Shown in pieces: positions 11,526-28,112 of a DNA stretch of 64,000 bases. Under the pieces are notes generated by a model. That model was not told where the DNA came from. It did no database searches and saw only the letters and a program-made list of their open reading frames with translations. The DNA is taken from positions 3,224,001-3,288,000 of the forward strand of contig NZ_LWLN01000001.1 in the NCBI RefSeq assembly GCF_001953745.1, given 5' to 3'. Source of the stretch: Natrinema saccharevitans (GTDB lineage Archaea > Halobacteriota > Halobacteria > Halobacteriales > Natrialbaceae). How positions within the stretch are numbered: position 1 is the first letter of the stretch; each line of letters starts with the position of its first letter. The translations under genes and the position numbers were made by a program.

Positions 11526-13712
11526 TCAGTCCGCGGCGACTTCGACTTTCGCTTCGTCCTCCTTGCCGATGGCCTCGACGATGAGTTCGGCGACGTCGAC
11601 GATCTCGATCTCGTCCTCGAAGTCGCCGGTCTTGCGGCCGTCCTCGTACATCGTCATGCACATCGGACAGGCGACGACGAACTTCTCGATCCCGCTGCCG
11701 GCGTCGGTGTCCTCGAGCGCCTCGCGGATCCGTTCCTCGCTCGGTTTCGGCTCCTCCTCGAAGTCCATCCAGAGGCCGCCGCCGCCGCCGCCACAGCAGA
11801 AGGAGTTGCTGCGGTTGCGAGGCATCTCATCGAGCGTACAGCCCGTCGCCTTGATGAGTTCGCGCGGGGCCTCGTACTCGTCGTTGTACCGGCCCAGATG
11901 GCAGGGGTCGTGGTAGGTGACCGTGTAGTCGAGTTCGGTTCCGTTCAGGTCGAGTTTGCCCTCCTCGACGAGTTCTTCCACCGCTTGAGTCCAGTGGTAG
12001 ACGTCGATCTCGCCGTCGTCGTTCCACTGCTCCTCGTACTCGAAGGGCATCATCGGGTCGTCGGCGAACTCGTCGAAGTTGACTTCGGGGTACTCGTTTT
12101 TGAACGTGTTGTAGGAGTGGGGGTCCGTACAGACGATCGTGTCGAACTCGCAGTCCTCCCACGTCTCGACGTGGTGGCCGGCCAGTTCGACGTAGAGCAG
12201 TTCCTCGCCGACCCGTCGGATGTCGTTGCCGTCGAACTTCTCGTCGTCGAAGAGGATGCCGAAGCTGACGTCGGCCTCTTTGAGAATGGTCGCCAGCGAG
12301 CGGGCGACCTGCTTGTTGCGCTCGTCGTAGCTCGGGAAGTCACCGACGTACCAGAGGTAGTCGACTTCCTCCTCGCGGGCGTCGGTCACGTCGAATTCGA
12401 GTTCTTCGGTCCAGTCACCGCGAGACCGCGGCGAGTCGCCGAAGGTGTTGCCGTTTTGCATGACGTTCTGGAAGACGTCCTGCATGCTCGAGGAGACGTC
12501 GCCCTGATCGGTCAGCTGGCGGTTGAGCCGGGTAAAGCTCTTGAGGTGTTCGATCTCGACGGGGCAGGCGTCCATACAGGCCATACAGGCCATACAGGAG
12601 TCCATCGTCTCGGAGTCGATCACCGAGGTGCCGCCGTCGGCGACGATCGGTTTCTCCTCGCCGCCGGCCTCGAGATCTTCTCGGTAGGATTTCAGATCGA
12701 GGATGACGTCGCGCGGGTCCAGCGGCCGGTCGGAGGCCTTGGCCGGACAGACCGAGGAACAGCGACCGCACTTGGTACAGGCGTCCTGGTCGAGGATCTC
12801 CTTCCAGGTGAAGTCGTCGATCGATTCGGCGTTGGTCGCGTCCAGATCCGAGGGGACGTTCGGCAGGCGCTTGCCGGCCTTCTCGTCGCGCGTGACGACG
12901 TTCGCAAAGGAGGAGATCATGTGGAACGGCTTCGCGTAGGGGATCCACGCGATGAAGAAGAAGGCGATCAGCGAGTGGGACCACCACGCGAGCCAGTGGA
13001 GGTTCTCGACGTTGAAGCCGGCCCCGTTCAGGCCGGCCTGCTCGGCACCCATCGTCGGGAGCCCGACGGCGTCGAAGCCGAGTGCCATCCCGTAGGCGAC
13101 GAAGCTGACGACCTCGTGGTCGGGAATGCCGGCGCTGTAGACGCGCAGTCCCTCGAGCAGGAAGCCGCCGACGCCCAGCGCGAACAGCGTCCAGATGAAG
13201 AGATCGTCCTCGTTGGAGGTGTGGCGGCCCCAGAGACGGTGGTTGCGGACCCAGTAGCGTCGGTACATCGCCATCCCGATGCCGACGACGAACAGCAGGC
13301 CCATGGCGTCGACCATGAACTGGTAGGCGAGATAGAAGTCACCCTCCCAGAACGCCATGTGCAGGATTTTCTGGCCGACATATAGATCGGCCCCCAGAAT
13401 TAGTGTCGCGATGAACAGCGTCAGGAATCCCCAGAGGATAAAGGAATGCATCAGGCCGCCGTAGAGGTCCCTGTTGAACTGTTTCTCGTTCGAGAGCGCG
13501 ATCTTGGCCGAGCTCACGATGCGGTTCGGCATGTCGTTCAGACGCGCGAAGGAGTCGTCGTCGCCCTGCGAGTAGCGGGCGAACCGCCGATAGACGCCGT
13601 AGGTGAAGACGGCGACGGCGGTGGCCGCGAGGAGGTAAAACGTCGCGTACTCGACGCTGGTAATGCCCCAGTACGTCTCCCTCGCCACGTCTGACTGTGC
13701 TAGCGCATGCAT
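11526..13712 (-). CDS. Membrane-bound heterodisulfide reductase-like Fe-S oxidoreductase (HdrE/HdrD-type fusion)
   Basis: A 728-aa fusion. The ATG at 13712 (MHALAQSDVARETYW) is preferred to a TTG two codons earlier. Residues about 20-260 form a cytochrome-b-like membrane part with several helices and histidines (LMHSFILWGF, HWLAWWSHSL) that could hold haem b. Two [4Fe-4S] motifs follow: CTKCGRCSSVCP and CMACMACMDACP (about 312-322 and 373-383). The C-terminal half is an HdrB/HdrD-type CCG domain, with CCGGGGGGLW at about residue 645. The first CCG repeat lacks its Cys (YVGDFPSYDERN). Such proteins in haloarchaea are linked to moving electrons between ETF/acyl-CoA dehydrogenases and quinones; that role is inferred. 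Confidence 0.88.
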   Translation of the reverse strand: MHALAQSDVARETYWGITSVEYATFYLLAATAVAVFTYGVYRRFARYSQGDDDSFARLNDMPNRIVSSAKIALSNEKQFNRDLYGGLMHSFILWGFLTLFIATLILGADLYVGQKILHMAFWEGDFYLAYQFMVDAMGLLFVVGIGMAMYRRYWVRNHRLWGRHTSNEDDLFIWTLFALGVGGFLLEGLRVYSAGIPDHEVVSFVAYGMALGFDAVGLPTMGAEQAGLNGAGFNVENLHWLAWWSHSLIAFFFIAWIPYAKPFHMISSFANVVTRDEKAGKRLPNVPSDLDATNAESIDDFTWKEILDQDACTKCGRCSSVCPAKASDRPLDPRDVILDLKSYREDLEAGGEEKPIVADGGTSVIDSETMDSCMACMACMDACPVEIEHLKSFTRLNRQLTDQGDVSSSMQDVFQNVMQNGNTFGDSPRSRGDWTEELEFDVTDAREEEVDYLWYVGDFPSYDERNKQVARSLATILKEADVSFGILFDDEKFDGNDIRRVGEELLYVELAGHHVETWEDCEFDTIVCTDPHSYNTFKNEYPEVNFDEFADDPMMPFEYEEQWNDDGEIDVYHWTQAVEELVEEGKLDLNGTELDYTVTYHDPCHLGRYNDEYEAPRELIKATGCTLDEMPRNRSNSFCCGGGGGGLWMDFEEEPKPSEERIREALEDTDAGSGIEKFVVACPMCMTMYEDGRKTGDFEDEIEIVDVAELIVEAIGKEDEAKVEVAAD

Positions 13713-13901
13713 ATCCAATGAGGGGGAAGGCTGTAACTTAATTCTTGTTACACCGTTCCAATATTCGCCTTGACGCTGTCTGTCGAAAATACTCCATCTA
13801 TTCTCAGTTTATAATAGATTGACACGCAATAGATCTCGGCGTTTGAACAAAAATAATGCGTCGGACGAAAGGACAAAAACCGGTGGACGTGACGACTCCA
13901 C

Positions 13902-14774
13902 TTACAGCGGGACTGCGACGAGGTGGAATAGTCCGAGCCAGGCATAGCTCCCGACGACGTGCCACTCGACAGCGTGACGGACCGTCATCGGATCGGTGCG
14001 ACCTCGCCCGAACGAGACCGTCGCGAACAGCGTTCCGGCGAGCAGCAGTACCGGAAGAACCATTGACGCCGGTCCCCGGTGAAAGAAACTGAGTAGGATC
14101 GCCGCCGAGACGGTGAGGCTCACAGCGATTGTCCCCGCAACCGCCGTCCGCGAGAGATCGCGACCGAGCGAGGCGATGCCAGCCTGCCGGTCGCCGTCGC
14201 TGTCGAGATACGCACCAATCGTATCGTGGCAGATATCCCACAACCAGGTCGCAGCGAAGATCGCGGCCAGCTCGACCGTGAGTCCGCCGTAGACGGTCCA
14301 TCCCATGACGCTGAACATCGAAACACTAGTCACTGTTACGAGCGTCGAGATCCCGGTAACGTTTAGCCGGTTGAAGACGAGTGGGTCCGCGATCAGGATC
14401 GCGTACAGGAGGGCCGCGGCTACGAGAAACGAGTCCCCGACGAGCACTGCCAGTCCCAGTCCGCCACCGAGCATTGCAGCCCCCATCCAGAACGCCTGCG
14501 TTCTGGTGACTAACCCCGACGGGATCGGACGGTGTGGTTTCTCGATCGCGTCAGATTCGGCGTCGAAATAGTCGTCGTGAGTGAGGATGCTACCGCGGAC
14601 GAGGAGCATACTCACGAACGCGATTCCCGCGGTGAGATCGATTCCGCCGTCTTGGACGGTGATCGCTAGCGGCAACCCAAATAGGGCTACATCAATCGCG
14701 AAGTAGCGGATCGGTGTCACCCGATTGAACGTCACGAACGCACGGAACGGGTCACTTGTCGATGACGTTGACAT
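13902..14774 (-). CDS. UbiA-family prenyltransferase
   Basis: A 290-aa integral membrane enzyme with about eight or nine helices. It has both Asp-rich motifs that bind the Mg2+-diphosphate of a prenyl donor: HDDYFDAESD (Asp67-Asp75) and WDICHDTIGAYLDSDGD (Asp180-Asp195). UbiA enzymes attach a polyprenyl chain to an aromatic ring, a sugar-phosphate or a lipid headgroup; the acceptor here is unknown. The start overlaps the end of the upstream phosphoribosyltransferase-like gene by 23 bases, so the two are translationally coupled. A role with a phosphoribosyl acceptor, as in mycobacterial decaprenyl-phosphoribose synthesis, is possible but speculative. Confidence 0.88.
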   Translation of the reverse strand: MSTSSTSDPFRAFVTFNRVTPIRYFAIDVALFGLPLAITVQDGGIDLTAGIAFVSMLLVRGSILTHDDYFDAESDAIEKPHRPIPSGLVTRTQAFWMGAAMLGGGLGLAVLVGDSFLVAAALLYAILIADPLVFNRLNVTGISTLVTVTSVSMFSVMGWTVYGGLTVELAAIFAATWLWDICHDTIGAYLDSDGDRQAGIASLGRDLSRTAVAGTIAVSLTVSAAILLSFFHRGPASMVLPVLLLAGTLFATVSFGRGRTDPMTVRHAVEWHVVGSYAWLGLFHLVAVPL

Positions 14775-15360
14775 TGTTACCCTCGATCTCGATAGCGATC
14801 GATGTCGTTACATCGACCCCGGTTTCCTCGGCGACGCGGTCGACGCCGTTTTTTCGCGTCTTTTCGACGATACAGTGAGCCTCCTCGACCACTGCACCCG
14901 CCTTCTCGATGGCCTCGATCATCGCGATCATCGTCCCGCCGGTACTGATCGTATCGTCGACGATCGTGACTGCGTCGCCGGGCTCGATGCCGTTCAGGTA
15001 GAGATCGCCAGAAAAGTACTCAGAATCGATTTCGACCGCTGACTGACGGTCAGCATTTAAATCGTACGTGTACCAGCGAGCGACCGCGAGCGGCAGCGAG
15101 TACTCCCGTGCGACCAACACCCCGAAGGGCAGTCCCTTGTCCTCTTCGACTGCGAGTTTGTCGACATCAAACGACCCTGCCCCCGAAAGCAGCGTTCTCG
15201 CTGCCTCAAGCGTCCGCGGTTGTAGTGCTGGGAGTTGGTCGGTCAACTGATTGACCGTCGTCGCGTGTTCGCCTGAGTGGGTTACCCCAGCGTCCTCGTA
15301 GACCGCCACAATTTGCTCCGTAGCCGCTTCTATACCCATCTCTGTATTTCTCATCGACAT
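14752..15360 (-). CDS. Phosphoribosyltransferase-like protein (APRT-type fold)
   Basis: A 202-aa protein with the type I PRTase PRPP-binding loop VTIVDDTISTGGT (residues 131-143), two acidic residues then T-x-x-T-G-G-T. It also has the upstream EEDKGLPFGVLVAREYSLPL segment that corresponds to the flexible hood and purine-binding part of adenine and xanthine PRTases. The N-terminal 60 residues are helical and unlike standard archaeal Hpt or Apt. The start at 15360 (MSMRNTEMG) fits a TATA element 31 bases upstream; Met at 15354 is an alternative. The gene is the first of a two-gene unit with the UbiA enzyme. The nucleobase or other acceptor is unknown. Confidence 0.8.
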   Translation of the reverse strand: MSMRNTEMGIEAATEQIVAVYEDAGVTHSGEHATTVNQLTDQLPALQPRTLEAARTLLSGAGSFDVDKLAVEEDKGLPFGVLVAREYSLPLAVARWYTYDLNADRQSAVEIDSEYFSGDLYLNGIEPGDAVTIVDDTISTGGTMIAMIEAIEKAGAVVEEAHCIVEKTRKNGVDRVAEETGVDVTTSIAIEIEGNNVNVIDK

Positions 15361-15570
15361 TGCGTTATAATTGAGAAACCTTTTGATTATATATTTTTCT
15401 ATAATAATTGTATTAATATGCGACATATACGTCTGTCGAGACGGTTAGGACGGCGACTGATGAGCGCCGTTCCACCGAATCTCCAACGGATGTTATGATG
15501 TACTATATAATATAAAAATCAAAACAATATTATAGTTATTAGTAGTAGGCTCGATGCGAACTGATTACTG
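15361..15570. promoter_or_regulatory. Divergent AT-rich promoter region between the PRTase-UbiA unit and the P450
   Basis: This 210-bp spacer is far more AT-rich than the surrounding genes. On the minus strand a TATATA core lies at 15389-15394, about 31 bases before the PRTase start. On the plus strand an ATATTATAG element near 15531-15539 lies about 36 bases before the P450 ATG. A second A/T block (tactatataatataaaaatc, about 15498-15517) could be another TATA element or a regulator site. The divergent arrangement suggests shared control of the two transcripts. Confidence 0.55.
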
Positions 15571-16968
15571 ATGAGGTGGTCACACTTGAAGCGGAATACG
15601 GAACCTACAGCGAACGTCGCGGATCGACCGCCGGGCCTCGACGGATTGCCCGTCATCGGGAGTACCTTGTCGTTCATCCGTAATCCGCTCGACTTCGTCC
15701 GATCGATCGGTGAGTACGGTGACGTCGTGAGATACGTGGCGTTCGGTCGCGAGTTCGTGGTGATTTCGGATCCCGAACTCGTCGAGACGGTTCTCGTTTC
15801 TCGCGACAACGAGTTCTGGAAGGGGGAGTTCGAGAGTCGGCTCGGTGACATCGTCGCCCCGGACGGCGTCTTCTACGCCGAGGGTAGCGATTGGCGGCGG
15901 CAACGATCTCTTCTGCAGTCACTGTTCACACCGAAACGGATCGAAGCATATGCGGCCGATATGGTCGACGAAACTGTTCGGATGACCGATGGGTGGACCG
16001 ACGGAACTATCGTGAACGTTCGGGAAGAACTGTCCACGTTTACCCTGGGTGTGCTGACCCGATCGTTGTTCGATCTCGACCTCGAGGACGAGCGCGCGGA
16101 TGTCGTCGTCCGAATGGTGGACGCCCTTGGCGAGTACGTCGACGCGGAGATGCTCGGCGTTCGATCCGTACTCCCGTCGTGGGTGCCGAGCAAACCGGAA
16201 CGGAAGTTCGATCGAGCGATGGCCGACCTCGACGCTCTCGTCGAATCGCTCGTCCACGAACACCGCGAGTCAGAGGGAGAGAGCGACGATCTGCTATCGC
16301 TGCTTGCGACGGCCGAATACCCCGACGGCACGACACCCTCGCCGAACGAAGTGTCCGATCAGCTCGTTCAGTTCCTCGTCGCCGGACACGAGACGAGTGC
16401 GACCGCGCTGACCTATACCTGCTGGCTACTCGCCAACGATCCCGAGATGCAGCGTCGACTCGCCCGTGAAATCGAGACCGTCTGTGGCGACCGGAACCCG
16501 AGGATCGATGACCTGGGTTCGCTGACGCTCTCGGAAGCTGTCATCAACGAGGCGATGCGTCTGTATCCGCCGTTTCCCTTCATTCACCGCCAGCCCCACG
16601 AATCGACGACGCTCGGCGGGTATCGAATTCCGCCGGAATCTACGCTTCAGTTGCCGTTATCCTCCGTTCATCTGGACGACCGCTGGTGGCGCAACGCGGA
16701 GTCGTTCCGCCCGGAGCGGTGGCTCCCTGAGACAGAGCAGAACGGTAACTGGAAATGCGACAGGCCCGAGTACGCGTACTTCCCGTTCGGCGGCGGACCG
16801 CGCCACTGTATCGGCATGCGATTCGCCATGACTGAGTTACAACTCTCCCTTGCGGCGATGATCCGTCGAATCGAATTCGAACCCGTTACCGAGTCCCTCG
16901 GTCCCACGTGGAAGGTTTCCCTCGACCCGGGACCGGTCAAGCTTCGGATCCGTACCCGCGACCGGTAG
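15571..16968 (+). CDS. Cytochrome P450
   Basis: A 465-aa haem monooxygenase. The I-helix oxygen-activation motif is AGHETS (271-276), the K-helix E-x-x-R is EAMR (327-330), and the PERF-like motif is FRPERW (379-384). The haem-binding loop FPFGGGPRHCIGMRFA carries the axial ligand Cys413. No N-terminal membrane anchor is evident (RPPGLDGLPVIGSTLSFI begins the proline-rich hinge), so it is soluble and needs external electrons, probably ferredoxin. It resembles bacterial CYP102/CYP4-like and haloarchaeal CYP174-type enzymes by motif pattern only. It lies between two UbiA genes, pointing to oxidation of a prenyl or isoprenoid product. The substrate is unknown. Confidence 0.92.
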   Translation: MRWSHLKRNTEPTANVADRPPGLDGLPVIGSTLSFIRNPLDFVRSIGEYGDVVRYVAFGREFVVISDPELVETVLVSRDNEFWKGEFESRLGDIVAPDGVFYAEGSDWRRQRSLLQSLFTPKRIEAYAADMVDETVRMTDGWTDGTIVNVREELSTFTLGVLTRSLFDLDLEDERADVVVRMVDALGEYVDAEMLGVRSVLPSWVPSKPERKFDRAMADLDALVESLVHEHRESEGESDDLLSLLATAEYPDGTTPSPNEVSDQLVQFLVAGHETSATALTYTCWLLANDPEMQRRLAREIETVCGDRNPRIDDLGSLTLSEAVINEAMRLYPPFPFIHRQPHESTTLGGYRIPPESTLQLPLSSVHLDDRWWRNAESFRPERWLPETEQNGNWKCDRPEYAYFPFGGGPRHCIGMRFAMTELQLSLAAMIRRIEFEPVTESLGPTWKVSLDPGPVKLRIRTRDR

Positions 16969-17028
16969 CAATCTCGTGATTCGAACCGTTGACGATCCGG
17001 TAGAAGGCGATTGCGGCCGTGCGACGGA

Positions 17029-17949
17029 TTAGGAGAAATAGAACGCGGTCGCAAACGAGACGAAAAACACCGCGTTGATGATCGTGATAGCGCGGTCCGT
17101 GGTCTCTCCTCCGTCCCACGACCAGAGAATATACGATCCGAACCCACCGAGAAGGGCGAAAAACGGGACGACGTAGTAGACATCGAACAGCATCGGAGTG
17201 AGAACAAACGTTGACGGGAGCGCGACGACCAGTATCTTGGTGAGTCGGTCCTTGCCGTACCGGACGACGAGATTATCGATACCAGCTTTCGCATCGTGTT
17301 CTGCGTCTTTGAGGTCTTGATACGAGATCGTGAGTATAATCACGAGCGCCAACACCGTCGCTATTTGCCACGCGTCGGCCGGCGGGGAGGTTCCGACGAC
17401 CGCACTGCCGAGAATCACGGATAGGAATCCGCCGATACCGAAACAGAATAGACTGGATATCGCTCCGTTTTTCAGACGGAGTGGAGGGACCGTGTATATC
17501 ATCGCTGCGAGAACCCAGGCCAAGGCACTCAGGAATCCGAGGGAGTTGACGGTGGCACCGTACGCGACGGCGAATGCCATCAACACGACTCCGACTGCGA
17601 TCGCTTCGCGCTCCGAAATGAGTCCCTGCGTGGTGGCTCTGTCGGCGTTTGCCCCCTGGTCGATCTCTTTGTCAGTGATGTCGTTTATGAACCATTGACC
17701 CCAGTGGGCGAGTATCATCGCAACGGTCACGCCAGCAAGCTTACTCCCCTCTACCCCTTCGAGGCCGATCGGTTTCATCGCAACCACGATTCCGACCCCG
17801 GTCAACGCGACCCACGCGAGCGTGATCGGGAGCATCTTTGATATCCGCCGAATCGTGAGCAGTGCTGTTTCCGTTGACCAGATCAGGTAAAACCCAGCGA
17901 TCACCACGAACGCACCGCTGAGTATCGCCTGATTTGATATCTGTTCCAT
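17029..17949 (-). CDS. Second UbiA-family prenyltransferase
   Basis: A 306-aa multi-helix membrane enzyme. Motif 1 is INDITDKEID (Asn89-Asp97, N-D-x-x-D-x-x-x-D) and motif 2 is YQDLKDAEHDAKAG (Asp212-Asp219), the two diphosphate-Mg2+ sites. A typical IYTVPPLRLKN loop lies between them. The start at 17949 (MEQISNQAIL) is fixed by a TATA box 26 bases upstream. It diverges clearly from the other UbiA protein in this cluster, so it is not a recent duplicate. It is convergent with the P450 and lies 64 bases downstream of the methyltransferase gene on the same strand. The acceptor and prenyl length are unknown. Confidence 0.88.
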   Translation of the reverse strand: MEQISNQAILSGAFVVIAGFYLIWSTETALLTIRRISKMLPITLAWVALTGVGIVVAMKPIGLEGVEGSKLAGVTVAMILAHWGQWFINDITDKEIDQGANADRATTQGLISEREAIAVGVVLMAFAVAYGATVNSLGFLSALAWVLAAMIYTVPPLRLKNGAISSLFCFGIGGFLSVILGSAVVGTSPPADAWQIATVLALVIILTISYQDLKDAEHDAKAGIDNLVVRYGKDRLTKILVVALPSTFVLTPMLFDVYYVVPFFALLGGFGSYILWSWDGGETTDRAITIINAVFFVSFATAFYFS

Positions 17950-17970
17950 ATTGTGTGGTAATAAATTAAG

Positions 17971-17980
17971 GTATATATTA
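17971..17980 (-). promoter_or_regulatory. TATA box of the second UbiA gene
   Basis: TATATA on the minus strand is centred 26 bases before the ATG at 17949. It implies a separate, leaderless transcript even though the methyltransferase gene lies just upstream. Confidence 0.65.
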
Positions 17981-18013
17981 TTAATTATTTTTGGCGTGCA
18001 GTCACCGTCCGTC

Positions 18014-18598
18014 TCAGCTCTTGTCTCCCACATCCTTGAGAAGTCGGCGGAAGGTCCTCCCGTCGACGAATCGGGGAACCCTCTCGCAGTACTCCTCATA
18101 CTCGCTCCCGTACTGTTCCGCTAACCACGCTTCTTCGGGGCGAGGGTGAATCCACAGCCAGACGATACAGAGCGCCAACAGCGGAACGAGTAGCTTCGCC
18201 GCCGCCGTCGCTATCAGTCCCACGGCGATTCCGATAAACCCGACATACTGTGGATTCCGGGTGTATCGGTACGCACCGCCAGTGTACAACTGTCCCTCGA
18301 GTCCGAGCGTTGCAGTTCGAATGTAATACGCAGAGACGGCGGTAAAGACAACACTCACCACGAGAACGATGGCACCGATGTACCTGATCCACAGCGGCAT
18401 TGCGAGTGTCCCCCTGTTCAGAATTGTAAGCGTCAGAACCGATCCGGTAAAAATCGTACTCGCCGTCCAGTACGTCCAGAACCGCCAGTCCCTGTCGCCC
18501 GGCGGCCAGAACGAAAAAGAGTCGTTGACTACCGTTCCGACGATGCCGACGAGCAACACTACTTGTGCGCCGAGCCCAGTAATGAATACTCCATTCAT
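18014..18598 (-). CDS. Membrane methyltransferase of the ICMT/PEMT family
   Basis: A 194-aa protein with four or five helices. The signature of isoprenylcysteine carboxyl methyltransferase and phospholipid N-methyltransferase-type enzymes is present: GAYRYTRNPQYVGF (108-121, the SAM-contacting G-x-Y-x-x-x-R-N-P) and the later PRPEEAWLAEQYGSEYEEYC (EE at 155-156). Members methylate isoprenoid-linked carboxylates, thiols or amines at the membrane, using S-adenosylmethionine. In this cluster it plausibly methylates the prenylated product. A TATA box lies 27 bases upstream of the ATG at 18598. Confidence 0.85.
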   Translation of the reverse strand: MNGVFITGLGAQVVLLVGIVGTVVNDSFSFWPPGDRDWRFWTYWTASTIFTGSVLTLTILNRGTLAMPLWIRYIGAIVLVVSVVFTAVSAYYIRTATLGLEGQLYTGGAYRYTRNPQYVGFIGIAVGLIATAAAKLLVPLLALCIVWLWIHPRPEEAWLAEQYGSEYEEYCERVPRFVDGRTFRRLLKDVGDKS

Positions 18599-18914
18599 TA
18601 ACTAAGATTAATTAACTAATTAATATATAAGTATTATGGGTCCAGTAACAATTACGCCTGCGTCGCCGTATTCGCTGCGGGTCGTGTCTGTACAACGTCC
18701 CCGGTATGTCCTACCGGCTTCGAGTAACGAGCCGACTCGTCGAAGGAACGATCTCGGCTACAGCGACCTCACGCTCAATAAAACCCAAATCAATCTAGTC
18801 GGTACTACCACTTCTATATTTAATTCCCTATGATATATAATAGAAACCAAAATGCCTCACTTTCACGCTTAACGGCAACAGGCTTAAATAGCCGCCCGTC
18901 GGGAGTGTCCACCC
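18599..18914. other. AT-rich intergenic region at the cluster edge
   Basis: A 316-bp spacer. It holds the minus-strand TATA element (taatatata, 18622-18630) of the methyltransferase gene and a plus-strand TTAAATA box (18884-18890) about 28 bases before the cmi4 ATG. A 65-codon open frame in between has no haloarchaeal codon bias. I see no RNA gene or repeat in it. It marks the right edge of the lower-G+C cluster. Confidence 0.55.
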
Positions 18915-19505
18915 ATGAACGACAAAACCGAGGAACTGCGGGACATCTTCACCGACGTCACCGACGGTGAGGAGACCGTCACCGAATCGCAGGAGGACAC
19001 CCGCGGCTCCTTAGAGCGGGACGAGCGGACCGATCGGGACCGCCTCGAGAGCGTCGTCCAGCAGATGCGCGAACGCTACGCGTTCGAAACGCCGCTCTCG
19101 GACGACGAACTACTCACCGTCGCTCGGGGGTTTTACGACGACCGCAGCGACGACGAGATCGCTTCGGACCTCGGCGTCGACCCCGACACCGTCTTCGAGG
19201 CCCGCATGTCGCTGCACCTCGTCGGCGAGGACGACGCCGCCGAGGTCGATCTCGCGGCGATCCGCGAGCGAGACGCCGACGACGCCACGCTCGCCGACGA
19301 CTACGGCGTCAGCGAGGCCGAGATCCGCCGCTACCGCCGGGTCGCCGAGGCCGAGGACCAGTCGCGGACCGCCAACGACCGCTACCGCGACGAGTTCGAC
19401 AGCGTCCTCGCCGACGCCGACCTCTCCGAACGCATGGCCTCCGACCTCCGCGAGGACGGCCTCGAGGACGCGACCGAGGGAATGGAGACGGACGTGGAGT
19501 TCTGA
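18915..19505 (+). CDS. cmi4: Conditioned-medium-induced protein 4 homologue
   Basis: A 196-aa, very acidic protein without membrane segments. The layout matches what I recall of haloarchaeal conditioned-medium-induced protein 4. A variable acidic N-terminus is followed by LESVVQQMRERYAFETPLSD, then a helix-turn-helix-like repeat (FYDDRSDDEIASDLGVDPDT, and again DDATLADDYGVSEAEIRRYR). The two 'D..IA.DLGV' units look like tandem HTH motifs, so DNA binding is possible. The gene has a TATA box about 28 bases upstream and a hairpin downstream. The family's molecular function is not known to me. Confidence 0.75.
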   Translation: MNDKTEELRDIFTDVTDGEETVTESQEDTRGSLERDERTDRDRLESVVQQMRERYAFETPLSDDELLTVARGFYDDRSDDEIASDLGVDPDTVFEARMSLHLVGEDDAAEVDLAAIRERDADDATLADDYGVSEAEIRRYRRVAEAEDQSRTANDRYRDEFDSVLADADLSERMASDLREDGLEDATEGMETDVEF

Positions 19506-25485: not shown

Positions 25486-25653
25486 TTACTGGCTTCCTAT
25501 TAGCGGCCCCTACAAGTGTGTGCCGACCTGCGGTCGCCAGTGGCGGCCGAGCGGCTAAACCGCGGAGTCTGCTCGAGTCAATGCGGTGGAAAGATCCGTG
25601 AGAAACTGTCCGATCACAGATCCGTTTTGTGCCGCGTCGGAAACCCGCATACA

Positions 25654-26070
25654 TCACTCCACTGGCTCGGAATCGGTCGCGACGTGCTCGAGAAAGAACG
25701 CCCTGTGTTTGTACAGGATCCATAGGCCGGTCAGCCAGAGTGTTGTGGCAGCCACGGCACTTAGTAGTAGATCGTCATCGCCTTGGACAGTACCTGAGTC
25801 GAGAATCCCAAGAAATCCCCCTGTAATATGAAAACTCCAACCGAGGAATCCACCGGCGAGGCCGATTGGCCGGCCAGTGATGATCGTCCAGCCGATACCG
25901 ACTGTACACACACTGAAGACGATTGCTGGCCAGATCTCCAGGGGGTTCTCTCCACTAATGGCTTGAATACCGTTCCTAATTCCGTTGATTAGGATGAGCC
26001 AGCCCAGTATTCCGACGCTGAACGGTGCTGTATTTGTATTCAGCTCAAGAAGTTTCCTTCTGGAAATCAT
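25654..26070 (-). CDS. Small four-helix membrane protein, unknown
   Basis: A 138-aa hydrophobic protein with about four helices (VGILGWLILINGIRNGIQ; IVFSVCTVGIGWTIITG; PIGLAGGFLGWSFHITGG; AVAATTLWLTGLWILYKH). It lies 68 bases downstream of, and on the same strand as, the Tat-exported protein. An AT-rich stretch around 26098-26115 looks like its own promoter. Base composition is lower in G+C than the neighbouring PiT gene. It could protect against or export the adjacent secreted protein, but nothing in the sequence proves it. Confidence 0.6.
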   Translation of the reverse strand: MISRRKLLELNTNTAPFSVGILGWLILINGIRNGIQAISGENPLEIWPAIVFSVCTVGIGWTIITGRPIGLAGGFLGWSFHITGGFLGILDSGTVQGDDDLLLSAVAATTLWLTGLWILYKHRAFFLEHVATDSEPVE

Positions 26071-26138
26071 TTCCTAGTACTAGTATCAATCAATTAGCAA
26101 TAATATATTATAATTGTGGGCTACTCAAATATCATTAA

Positions 26139-27068
26139 CTAGTCCCAATATTCTACTTCTAGACCATAGTGTGCTCCAGGAACAGCGGGAACACCGTCTC
26201 CTTCTTCCCCTGCTTCAGTAACATATTCACTAGCTGTCGTCTGACATACTGCTGTGAATTCACTAAATTCAGAAGGATCATGACAATCATACCAGATCCC
26301 AGTTGCAGCACCGTTAGCCAAAACACCGACAAGAGGGCTTAATGCCCACTTACAACTCCTTGCTGCTACTACGGTTGCAATTGCTTGTCTTGGATCCAAA
26401 GAACGTTGTGCACTAACATCAGTTGATGAACTAGATCCTAGGGATTCTGCTTCACTTGATTCAGGCACTGATTTTATGCTCGATAAACTAGAGAGGTCTC
26501 CTTGGACAAGTTCACATAACGAATCAAGGGCTAATGACTCTATTTTATCAGATGCATATCCTGGAAGGCTTGGCAATCCTGTATCTACTGCAAGGCCCCA
26601 TGTGTAATCTTGCTCAAATTGGGCTGCAGGACAATCTCCTTGGATATCTGTCCAGAATTCATATCCCGGATTCCATACATCGTCCCAATCAGGTAGATCA
26701 ATCTGTGGCTCAACTGAACCCTCTTTTTCAATCTTATTTTTCAATGAATCATCTTCCGAAACAGAAACTCGATTCTCATTCGCCTTTTTTACGTTGAGTT
26801 GCCCTTTCAAATTGGTTTCCGAGTTTCCACTATTGATCTCTATGATAAAATCCTGGCCATCGCTATAATGCACTATTCTCTTGTTTTCATCAGAGTACAA
26901 TATCTCTGTTTTAGACGATTTTCTGTCGTTATTTGTCCGGGTTGATTCTGATGCTGTACTAGTGCCCATGAGTCCAGTTGTCCCCACTGTTGCGAGAGCA
27001 CCCATTTGGAGGATCCGTCTTCGGTTAGTACAGCGATTATCGCTATCTCTCTTTTGCGTCATATTCAT
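26139..27068 (-). CDS. Tat-exported protein of unknown function in an AT-rich islet
   Basis: About 309 aa. The start at 27068 is favoured because a TATATA box lies 25 bases upstream; Met codons at 27080, 27077 and 27062 are alternatives. A Tat signal is clear: NRRRILQMGALATVGTTGLM followed by GTSTASES. The mature protein is Ser/Glu-rich. The C-terminal half has five cysteines, including a Cys-flanked, Gly/Ala-rich hydrophobic segment (SCKWALSPLVGVLANGAATG, then IWYDCHDPSEF). That arrangement recalls the cysteine-rich hydrophobic peptides released from halocin C8-type precursors, but there is no direct sequence match. The gene is much more AT-rich than its flanks, pointing to recent acquisition. 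Confidence 0.65.
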   Translation of the reverse strand: MNMTQKRDSDNRCTNRRRILQMGALATVGTTGLMGTSTASESTRTNNDRKSSKTEILYSDENKRIVHYSDGQDFIIEINSGNSETNLKGQLNVKKANENRVSVSEDDSLKNKIEKEGSVEPQIDLPDWDDVWNPGYEFWTDIQGDCPAAQFEQDYTWGLAVDTGLPSLPGYASDKIESLALDSLCELVQGDLSSLSSIKSVPESSEAESLGSSSSTDVSAQRSLDPRQAIATVVAARSCKWALSPLVGVLANGAATGIWYDCHDPSEFSEFTAVCQTTASEYVTEAGEEGDGVPAVPGAHYGLEVEYWD

Positions 27069-27080
27069 CCATAACATCAT

Positions 27081-27389
27081 AACAATCTAATATATACTTT
27101 TATATTCTAATAGAACTAATAGTTTATTAAGAACTAATTAAATACTATACTTACCAATCGCATTGACGGGTTTTGTTGGAGAAGTCTCATACCGTATTCC
27201 GAGAGATGGTAATTCGTGGAATTATACAAATGAAATCTAGTTTAAATTTTTTATTGCAATCTAAAATTAATTTTGCTCCTCTGTGACAGGAATATTGCTG
27301 TTTAAGTATAGTGAAGAATCTTTGAATTGCTGCTCTCTGTTATAGGATAATCACCTCTGTGCGATCAGAAAACGAAGTAGGTTGAACGT
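27081..27389. other. AT-rich intergenic region
   Basis: A 309-bp AT-rich spacer. It contains the TATATA promoter element of the Tat-exported gene (27091-27096) and several A/T runs (e.g. ttttttattgcaatc around 27245). I see no coding frame with haloarchaeal codon use, no tRNA-like cloverleaf and no clear inverted repeats. It ends abruptly in normal-composition sequence at about 27390. Confidence 0.5.
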
Positions 27390-28112
27390 TCAGTTCGTCG
27401 TCGACCGCGAATTATCGCCGTTTTCCGGCGGCGGCTCCGCGCCCTCGATGGCCTCGGCCGCGTCGGTGTCTTTCTCGACTTCGACGTGCCAGCGGTCGAT
27501 TTCGTCCTCGTACTCGGCGAGTCGTTCCGAGACGGCTTCCTTGAGGTCGTCGTCGTTGACGTTGACCTCGAAGACGAACCGCTCGCCGTTCCCGCCGTTG
27601 CGCGTCGACTGCTGGACGTTGGCGCTGACGAGTTCGTTGTCGAAGTAGTAGGGCGCGAGCTGGGTCATCACGTTCTGGTAGACCGTGTCCTCGACCCGAC
27701 GCAGGGCCTTGCGGCTCGCGGAGTCGGCCGCGCGCGCGACGTAGTCGATCGACTCCTTCCAGTTGTCGACCGCGGCCCCGGCGTCGTCGTCCTCGAGGCT
27801 CTCGTAGGACTCCGAGAGCTTCTCGCCGGCGGTCTTGATGTCCTCGTCGGGCTCTTTGCCGGCCTTTTCTCCTTTGCCTTCCTCGACGCTGGCCTGGTCG
27901 GCGGTCTTTTCACTGACGTCCGAATCGAGGGTTTCGTGGGCTTTGGGTCGCCACTCGTCCCATTCCTCGAAGGCGCGTGCGAAGCGCGCGCCCCACTCCT
28001 GGTCGGGATCGTGGACGTCGACGTCGCGGAGCGCGCGCGTGATGCGCTCCCCGTGTTCGACGATATCGCCCCAGTCACCGCGGACTTTGAACCCCGAGAT
28101 GCTCTCTTCCAT
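27390..28112 (-). CDS. Haloarchaeal DUF5828-like acidic coiled protein
   Basis: A 240-aa acidic, mostly helical protein starting MEESISGFKVRGDWGDIVEH at 28112. The N-terminal 60 residues (GERITRALRDVDVHDPDQEW) and the conserved middle (YVARAADSASRKALRRVEDT VYQ-type helix) are what I recall of a haloarchaea-specific family, DUF5828; the name is from memory. A beta-rich segment follows (STRNGGNGERFVFEVNVNDD), then a terminal helix. There are no membrane segments. Molecular function is unknown. The gene is monocistronic by layout. Confidence 0.65.
   Translation of the reverse strand: MEESISGFKVRGDWGDIVEHGERITRALRDVDVHDPDQEWGARFARAFEEWDEWRPKAHETLDSDVSEKTADQASVEEGKGEKAGKEPDEDIKTAGEKLSESYESLEDDDAGAAVDNWKESIDYVARAADSASRKALRRVEDTVYQNVMTQLAPYYFDNELVSANVQQSTRNGGNGERFVFEVNVNDDDLKEAVSERLAEYEDEIDRWHVEVEKDTDAAEAIEGAEPPPENGDNSRSTTN

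Follow-up and report, generated by a model that had tools for sequence, protein, structure and literature searches.

Two described systems come close to the locus reported here. In the tps1 cluster of Antrodia cinnamomea, a UbiA-type bisabolene synthase, a cytochrome P450 and a methyltransferase yield a sesquiterpene methyl ester, and UbiA-type terpene synthases are defined by a motif I of the form NxxX(G/A)xxxD that replaces NDxxDxxxD (PMC9835599). In Mycobacterium tuberculosis, the horizontally acquired Rv3377c-Rv3378c locus for 1-tuberculosinyladenosine provides a precedent for joining a terpene to a purine (PMC11476799). For archaea, a 2023 survey listed no gene cluster confidently tied to a secondary metabolite besides halocins and bacterioruberin (PMC10105419). 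The present analysis concerns a 64,000-nucleotide stretch of Natrinema saccharevitans (contig NZ_LWLN01000001.1, positions 3,224,001 to 3,288,000; "the window") and an island of five genes within it, named UbiA1, PRT, P450, UbiA2 and ICMT. Coordinates without a locus prefix are positions in the window. The island hints at an archaeal natural product new to the literature: in open-licence publications on haloarchaeal terpene synthases, UbiA proteins with phosphoribosyltransferases (PRTases), archaeal P450 clusters and methanogenesis marker 12, such clusters were undescribed.

As in tps1, a UbiA-superfamily enzyme is clustered here with a P450 and an S-adenosylmethionine (SAM)-dependent methyltransferase, and UbiA2 of the window carries a QDxxDxxxD motif II. 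The two systems differ in motif I and in the methyltransferase, which was purified as a soluble protein in the Antrodia case and is an ICMT/PEMT-type membrane enzyme in the window; moreover, tps1 is fungal, and the window adds a second UbiA and a PRTase to the set. The island shares horizontal acquisition with the 1-tuberculosinyladenosine locus and, as suspected from the purine genes near UbiA2, may share its terpene plus purine logic. Rv3377c is a class II cyclase, and DxDD-type cyclases occur in relatives of the island. In contrast, the window genome has no such cyclase, and the joining step would fall to a UbiA instead of an Rv3378c-type protein.

A sharply bounded, horizontally acquired island

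The five genes form an island that was acquired horizontally and lies, with sharp boundaries, in a fixed intergenic site. For the empty-site comparison, 30 loci of the family carrying the helix-turn-helix (HTH) gene of the right flank were used, the window counted among them. At 27 of these, the Fe-S oxidoreductase and HTH genes are separated by only 171-242 bp, mostly ~175 bp (empty site); the three filled sites belong to the window and to two genomes of one genus, probably Natronolimnohabitans. Flank identity with the empty sites stops near 13817 and restarts at 18874. The same five genes, in the same order and with the same flanks, were found in the window, in Natrinema ejinorense (UbiA2 93% identical) and in two Natronolimnohabitans species (UbiA2 86%). 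The ratio of non-synonymous to synonymous substitution (dN/dS) was 0.13-0.22 across the island genes, indicating purifying selection on every gene, and synonymous divergence was alike for island and flank genes; the block has therefore either been kept by selection since shared ancestry or been exchanged together with its flanks.

A preliminary description of the window had reported the five genes between a Fe-S oxidoreductase and a gene called cmi4, in DNA of lower G+C with AT-rich promoters. Five intact open reading frames (ORFs) were present over 13902-18598, each with its Pfam family above cut-off (34.2 bits for UbiA, PF01040; 25 for PEMT; 24 for ICMT; scores in Table 1), and two starts were revised by alignment with relatives: UbiA2 starts at 17949, not 18099, and PRT most likely at 15360. 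The Fe-S oxidoreductase was recovered by profile match, and the name cmi4 for the other flanking ORF found no confirmation from any family model. The compositional claim held: GC content was 0.576 in the cluster versus 0.676 and 0.669 in the flanks, spacer GC was 0.33-0.46 except in the short convergent P450/UbiA2 gap (0.58), and GC at third codon positions was 0.68-0.74 in island genes versus 0.87-0.91 in neighbouring genes. The genes fall into three apparent transcription units, ICMT-UbiA2 (-), P450 (+) and PRT-UbiA1 (-), and the reading frames of PRT and UbiA1 overlap by 23 nt.

Table 1. Positions of the island, its genes and its flanks in the window
Feature	Position	Strand	Remarks
Acquired island (insert)	13818..18873	.	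~5.06 kb; takes the place of ~34 bp in a ~175-bp divergent intergenic site
UbiA1, membrane prenyltransferase	13902..14774	-	290 aa; Pfam UbiA 98.3 bits; clade without a name
PRT, PRPP-dependent purine-type phosphoribosyltransferase	14752..15360	-	ORF opens at 15426, likely start 15360; Pfam Pribosyltran 35.8 bits
Cytochrome P450	15571..16968	+	465 aa; Pfam 277.8 bits
UbiA2, candidate membrane prenyltransferase/cyclase of a rare mobile clade	17029..17949	-	306 aa; Pfam 100.9 bits
ICMT/PEMT-type integral membrane methyltransferase	18014..18598	-	194 aa; Pfam PEMT 39.6, ICMT 24.2 bits
AT-rich divergent promoter region, PRT-UbiA1 / P450	15361..15570	.	GC 0.40 over 15427-15570
Left flank: Fe-S oxidoreductase (CCG domain), outside the island	11526..13718	-	Profile match and synteny
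Right flank: HTH-like protein (cmi4 in the preliminary description), outside the island	18915..19505	+	Synteny

In one Haloarcula-like genome (G298, L080:9784-14171), a cyclase, a homologue of methanogenesis marker 12 (TIGR03281; mm12) and a deoxyribosyltransferase-like gene (NDT) adjoin the same Fe-S oxidoreductase on its other side.

The arrangement in G298 means that the region may attract inserts, and relatives of P450 and ICMT are scattered among haloarchaea, as would be expected if unrelated cargo genes had collected in an insertion hotspot. Such chance assembly is very improbable: the gene order is shared by four species belonging to two genera, every gene is under purifying selection, UbiA1, PRT and UbiA2 are reunited at 40-60% identity on a plasmid from another family, and the 23-nt PRT-UbiA1 overlap is retained across window-type islands. 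With conserved order in four genomes, the dN/dS values and a clean empty site elsewhere, the gene set goes far beyond chance.

Island enzymes and housekeeping UbiA families

Catalytic signatures were intact in all five proteins. UbiA1 has the Asp motifs HDDYFDAESD and DSDGD, and UbiA2 has NDITDKEID (motif I) and QDLKDAEHD (motif II). The haem Cys motif FGGGPRHCIG and an ExxR motif (EAMR) were found in the P450 translation, and ICMT keeps an intact RNPQY...EE core that is conserved in the alignment. In PRT, the phosphoribosyl pyrophosphate (PRPP)-binding loop VTIVDDTISTGGT is intact, as in a type I phosphoribosyltransferase. PRT scored 183.7 bits against the adenine phosphoribosyltransferase model PRK12560, just under the equivalog cut-off of 188 (H. 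larsenii homologue, 164.4), and differs from two housekeeping purine PRTase paralogues of the same genome, both of which are above their own cut-offs. ICMT remained below the equivalog cut-off for protein-S-isoprenylcysteine O-methyltransferase (NF040696; 35.2 versus 160 bits).

Haem O synthase (CtaB), DGGGPS, MenA and a lycopene-elongase-type protein (PRK12875) are encoded elsewhere in the genome, all above NCBIfam cut-offs, and the two island UbiAs are thus additional to them. The island proteins share the superfamily and the Asp-rich motifs with these haloarchaeal enzymes, yet stand outside their families while occurring beside all of them in one genome. Neither protein reached an equivalog cut-off among the models for MenA, DGGGPS, CtaB, 4-hydroxybenzoate (4HB) prenyltransferase, DPPR synthase and EboC (best 69.8/269 for UbiA1 and 52.4/269 for UbiA2), and in the tree each had a clade of its own (support values 1.0 and 0.988), apart from the housekeeping UbiAs. 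UbiA2 is predicted to have the UbiA fold: its AlphaFold model (predicted local distance difference test score, pLDDT, 88.4) had as top PDB matches the Archaeoglobus fulgidus UbiA structures 4TQ3/4TQ4 (bound to geranyl diphosphate, GPP, and dimethylallyl diphosphate, DMAPP). The UbiA1 model was poor (pLDDT 46.9). A weak profile and fold match was obtained with the PRPP-using decaprenyl-phosphate phosphoribosyltransferase Rv3806c (PDB 8J8J), in which a UbiA fold serves for phosphoribosyl groups; unlike in that system, the PRPP enzyme of the island is a separate soluble-type PRTase, and the family cut-offs were unreached.

These results bear on whether the island acts on one of the usual membrane components, namely menaquinone, bacterioruberin or an archaeal ether lipid, to give, for instance, a quinone or headgroup with an added hydroxyl or methyl group. 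Quinone and lipid pathways typically employ UbiA proteins and methyltransferases, and in the related Haloferax larsenii locus a lycopene-elongase-like UbiA occurs with a gene of the geranylgeranyl reductase family. With dedicated genes elsewhere in the genome, the island UbiAs below every equivalog cut-off, and most relatives making these components without the island, we regard this as improbable. A housekeeping role in quinone, carotenoid or core-lipid synthesis was dropped on the strength of the dedicated genes, and the UbiA genes are thus not accounted for by any known haloarchaeal pathway. A reading as a defence system was also dropped, PADLOC having returned nothing credible.

A rather unlikely alternative is that UbiA2 is a UbiA-type terpene cyclase (EriG-, Fma-TC- or Tps1A-like) that, with P450 and ICMT, would make an oxidised terpene methyl ester lacking a head, UbiA1 and PRT acting separately. 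The Antrodia cluster offers a model for such a UbiA synthase, P450 and methyltransferase leading to a methyl ester (PMC9835599), the motif II of window UbiA2 fits the QDxxDxxxD of fungal UbiA-type synthases, and terpene genes occur among UbiA2 neighbours. The best NCBIfam models of the P450, albaflavenone and pentalenene oxygenases (scores below cut-off), act on sesquiterpenes, which is weak evidence because haloarchaeal P450s at other loci give the same ranking. However, motif I of UbiA2 is of the full transferase type NDxxDxxxD; since this motif is one of the features that define the fungal UbiA-type synthases (PMC9835599), UbiA2 was not placed among them. In motif II, the window protein and its near relatives have Q, whereas other clade members have K or W. 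UbiA1, PRT and UbiA2 also occur as a set on a plasmid that has neither P450 nor ICMT.

UbiA2 relatives and their purine genes

Profile matches to UbiA2 are rare (6/322 Halobacteria), and the three genomes with a UbiA1 match (3/322) are all UbiA2 carriers too. In the GTDB contig set, eight UbiA2 loci from further species were found, with two copies on plasmids. After dereplication, six cluster types were distinguished: (1) the window type (UbiA1, PRT, P450, UbiA2, ICMT); (2) a Haloferax larsenii plasmid (geranylgeranyl reductase, UbiA1, PRT, a SnoaL-like gene, a third UbiA, UbiA2 and a hydrolase); (3) Halocatena marina and a Halorussus caseinilyticus plasmid (deaminase, mm12, NDT-like, ABC transporter genes, DxDD class II cyclase, an MMPL transporter, polyprenyl synthase and UbiA2, with a GMP-reductase-like gene on the Halorussus plasmid); (4) Haloarcula amylolytica (NDT, mm12, UbiA2, deaminase, methyltransferase, P450); (5) Natrinema mahii (UbiA2, three P450s, methyltransferase, NDT, mm12); and (6) Halobacteriales QS_1_68_20 (two cyclase-like proteins, one with DxDD, NDT, mm12, UbiA2 and a PurA/PurZ-like gene). 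The methyltransferases near UbiA2 relatives include CMAS/GPP-methyltransferase-like enzymes.

Purine or N-glycosyl genes (PRTase, NDT-like, GMP-reductase-like, deaminase or PurA/PurZ-like) were present, singly or in combination, in 6/6 types, and by gene content the UbiA2 clade marks a family of haloarchaeal clusters that combine terpene and purine genes. The earlier hint of a ribose-phosphate core gains strength from these neighbours, and such a head would still be a conjecture about the product. Since the NDT-like genes match PF05014 only under the gathering score (E about 1e-5 to 2e-4), their N-glycosyl chemistry is putative. NDT-like genes occurred in 2/197 genomes, both UbiA2 carriers, and mm12 in five of the 322 Halobacteria, three of them UbiA2 carriers. 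Simple hypergeometric values for association with UbiA2, uncorrected for genome kinship, were 4e-6 for UbiA1, 4e-5 for mm12 and 3e-4 for NDT (assuming four UbiA2 carriers within the sample); those for NDT and mm12 are descriptive, because the tests were picked after the loci had been seen.

The preliminary description had also asked whether the five genes move together or lie in unrelated places in relatives. They are a single acquired island with constant order in four genomes, and are no obligate unit: the H. larsenii plasmid carries UbiA1, PRT and UbiA2 together (57%, 60% and 40% identical to the window) and has no P450 or ICMT. As the three genes recur there without both of these, P450 and ICMT are interpreted as recruited tailoring genes. 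P450s of 50-60% identity lie at an unrelated conserved chromosomal site near an mdh-like gene (named from its sequence), often with an HTH_10 regulator, and ICMT relatives are dispersed over 87/322 genomes. P450 and ICMT-like genes adjoin in one genome (G233) and are ~2 kb apart in another (G265), with a methyltransferase gene between; this proximity modestly backs a putative oxidise-then-methylate pair.

Several further features of these loci were recorded. Pairs of mm12 and NDT-like genes occur in non-methanogenic haloarchaea at L019:16420-17948, L018:7662-9243, L025:8248-9764, L082:1-1300, L104:3953-5561 and L080:9784-11321; a methanogen-like NDT-mm12 pairing was rejected, as none of 30 mm12 loci in the wider phylum had an adjoining NDT. 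Squalene-hopene-cyclase-like proteins that keep DxDD were found at L017:14419-16659, L025:2346-4385, L104:7765-9846 and L080:7159-8973, all in mm12/NDT loci. In L018 and L019 (Haloarcula amylolytica and Natrinema mahii, of different families), the UbiA2 clusters both lie within an NADH-dehydrogenase-like (nuo) region, between nuoCD-like and nuoH-like genes (names from ORF reading). The short adenylosuccinate-synthetase-like protein adjoining UbiA2 in QS_1_68_20 (L025:11067-12236) scored 230.9 against a PurZ cut-off of 300. Near the H. larsenii UbiA cluster (L016:2124-3983), two Cys-rich proteins with Tat signals resemble halocin-C8-type precursors on sequence reading.

Proposed pathway and product

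From its distribution and selection, the island appears to be a genuine, rare, mobile and selected prenyl-pathway locus. We slightly favour its interpretation as a horizontally acquired specialised-metabolite locus, the product of which would probably be a meroterpenoid carrying a nucleotide or a purine-derived group as its head. Taken alone, the specialised prenyl pathway is probable; the purine or ribose-phosphate head is tentative and somewhat doubtful. The prenylated, oxidised and methylated product proposed in the preliminary description was a reasonable idea, which the present results support in part.

Gene anatomy and associations are observed, and we infer every catalytic step of the following scheme. 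In the membrane, UbiA2 would convert a housekeeping prenyl diphosphate (C15-C25) into a prenyl conjugate or terpene skeleton. P450 would oxidise the resulting chain, possibly to an alcohol or acid, and the ICMT-type enzyme would then O-methylate the new oxygen function, giving a methyl ester or ether. PRT and UbiA1, presumably a translationally coupled pair, would supply the polar part: PRT would form a 5'-phosphoribosyl (purine-like) compound, and UbiA1 would use this product, or its partner, as acceptor in a second prenyl transfer. P450 and ICMT would have been added later onto a UbiA1-PRT-UbiA2 core.

Several points weigh against this interpretation. PRT is the single purine-type gene of the window locus, which lacks both a prenyl synthase of its own and a class II cyclase; a cyclase is also absent genome-wide (no PF13243 match), and is present in some relatives. 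Neither UbiA clade has a member with a known product or enzyme activity, and the P450 and ICMT families are large and present in other haloarchaeal contexts. Six cluster types are few, the purine theme was spotted only after the loci had been viewed, and the genes of the relatives were called with a home-made gene caller.

A broader and speculative extension, which we consider unlikely, is that the UbiA2 clade marks mobile haloarchaeal clusters making terpene-purine conjugates (archaeal terpene nucleosides or nucleotides). The UbiAs would then attach a prenyl chain or a cyclised terpene to heads that derive from purines and are supplied by the PRTase, deoxyribosyltransferase-like, deaminase, GMP-reductase-like and PurA/PurZ-like enzymes, with the mm12 homologue taking part in several lineages. 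If the purine association reflects the product, this would be a new meroterpenoid class and would give the first clue to the chemistry with which methanogenesis marker 12 is associated. Because the island and its relatives are small, mobile, bounded and partly in culturable species, the product question is directly testable with strains that have or lack the island.

Elsewhere in the window, a strongly AT-rich segment (25600-27500, GC ~0.41) bears a 313-aa secreted-looking protein (26139-27080, - strand).

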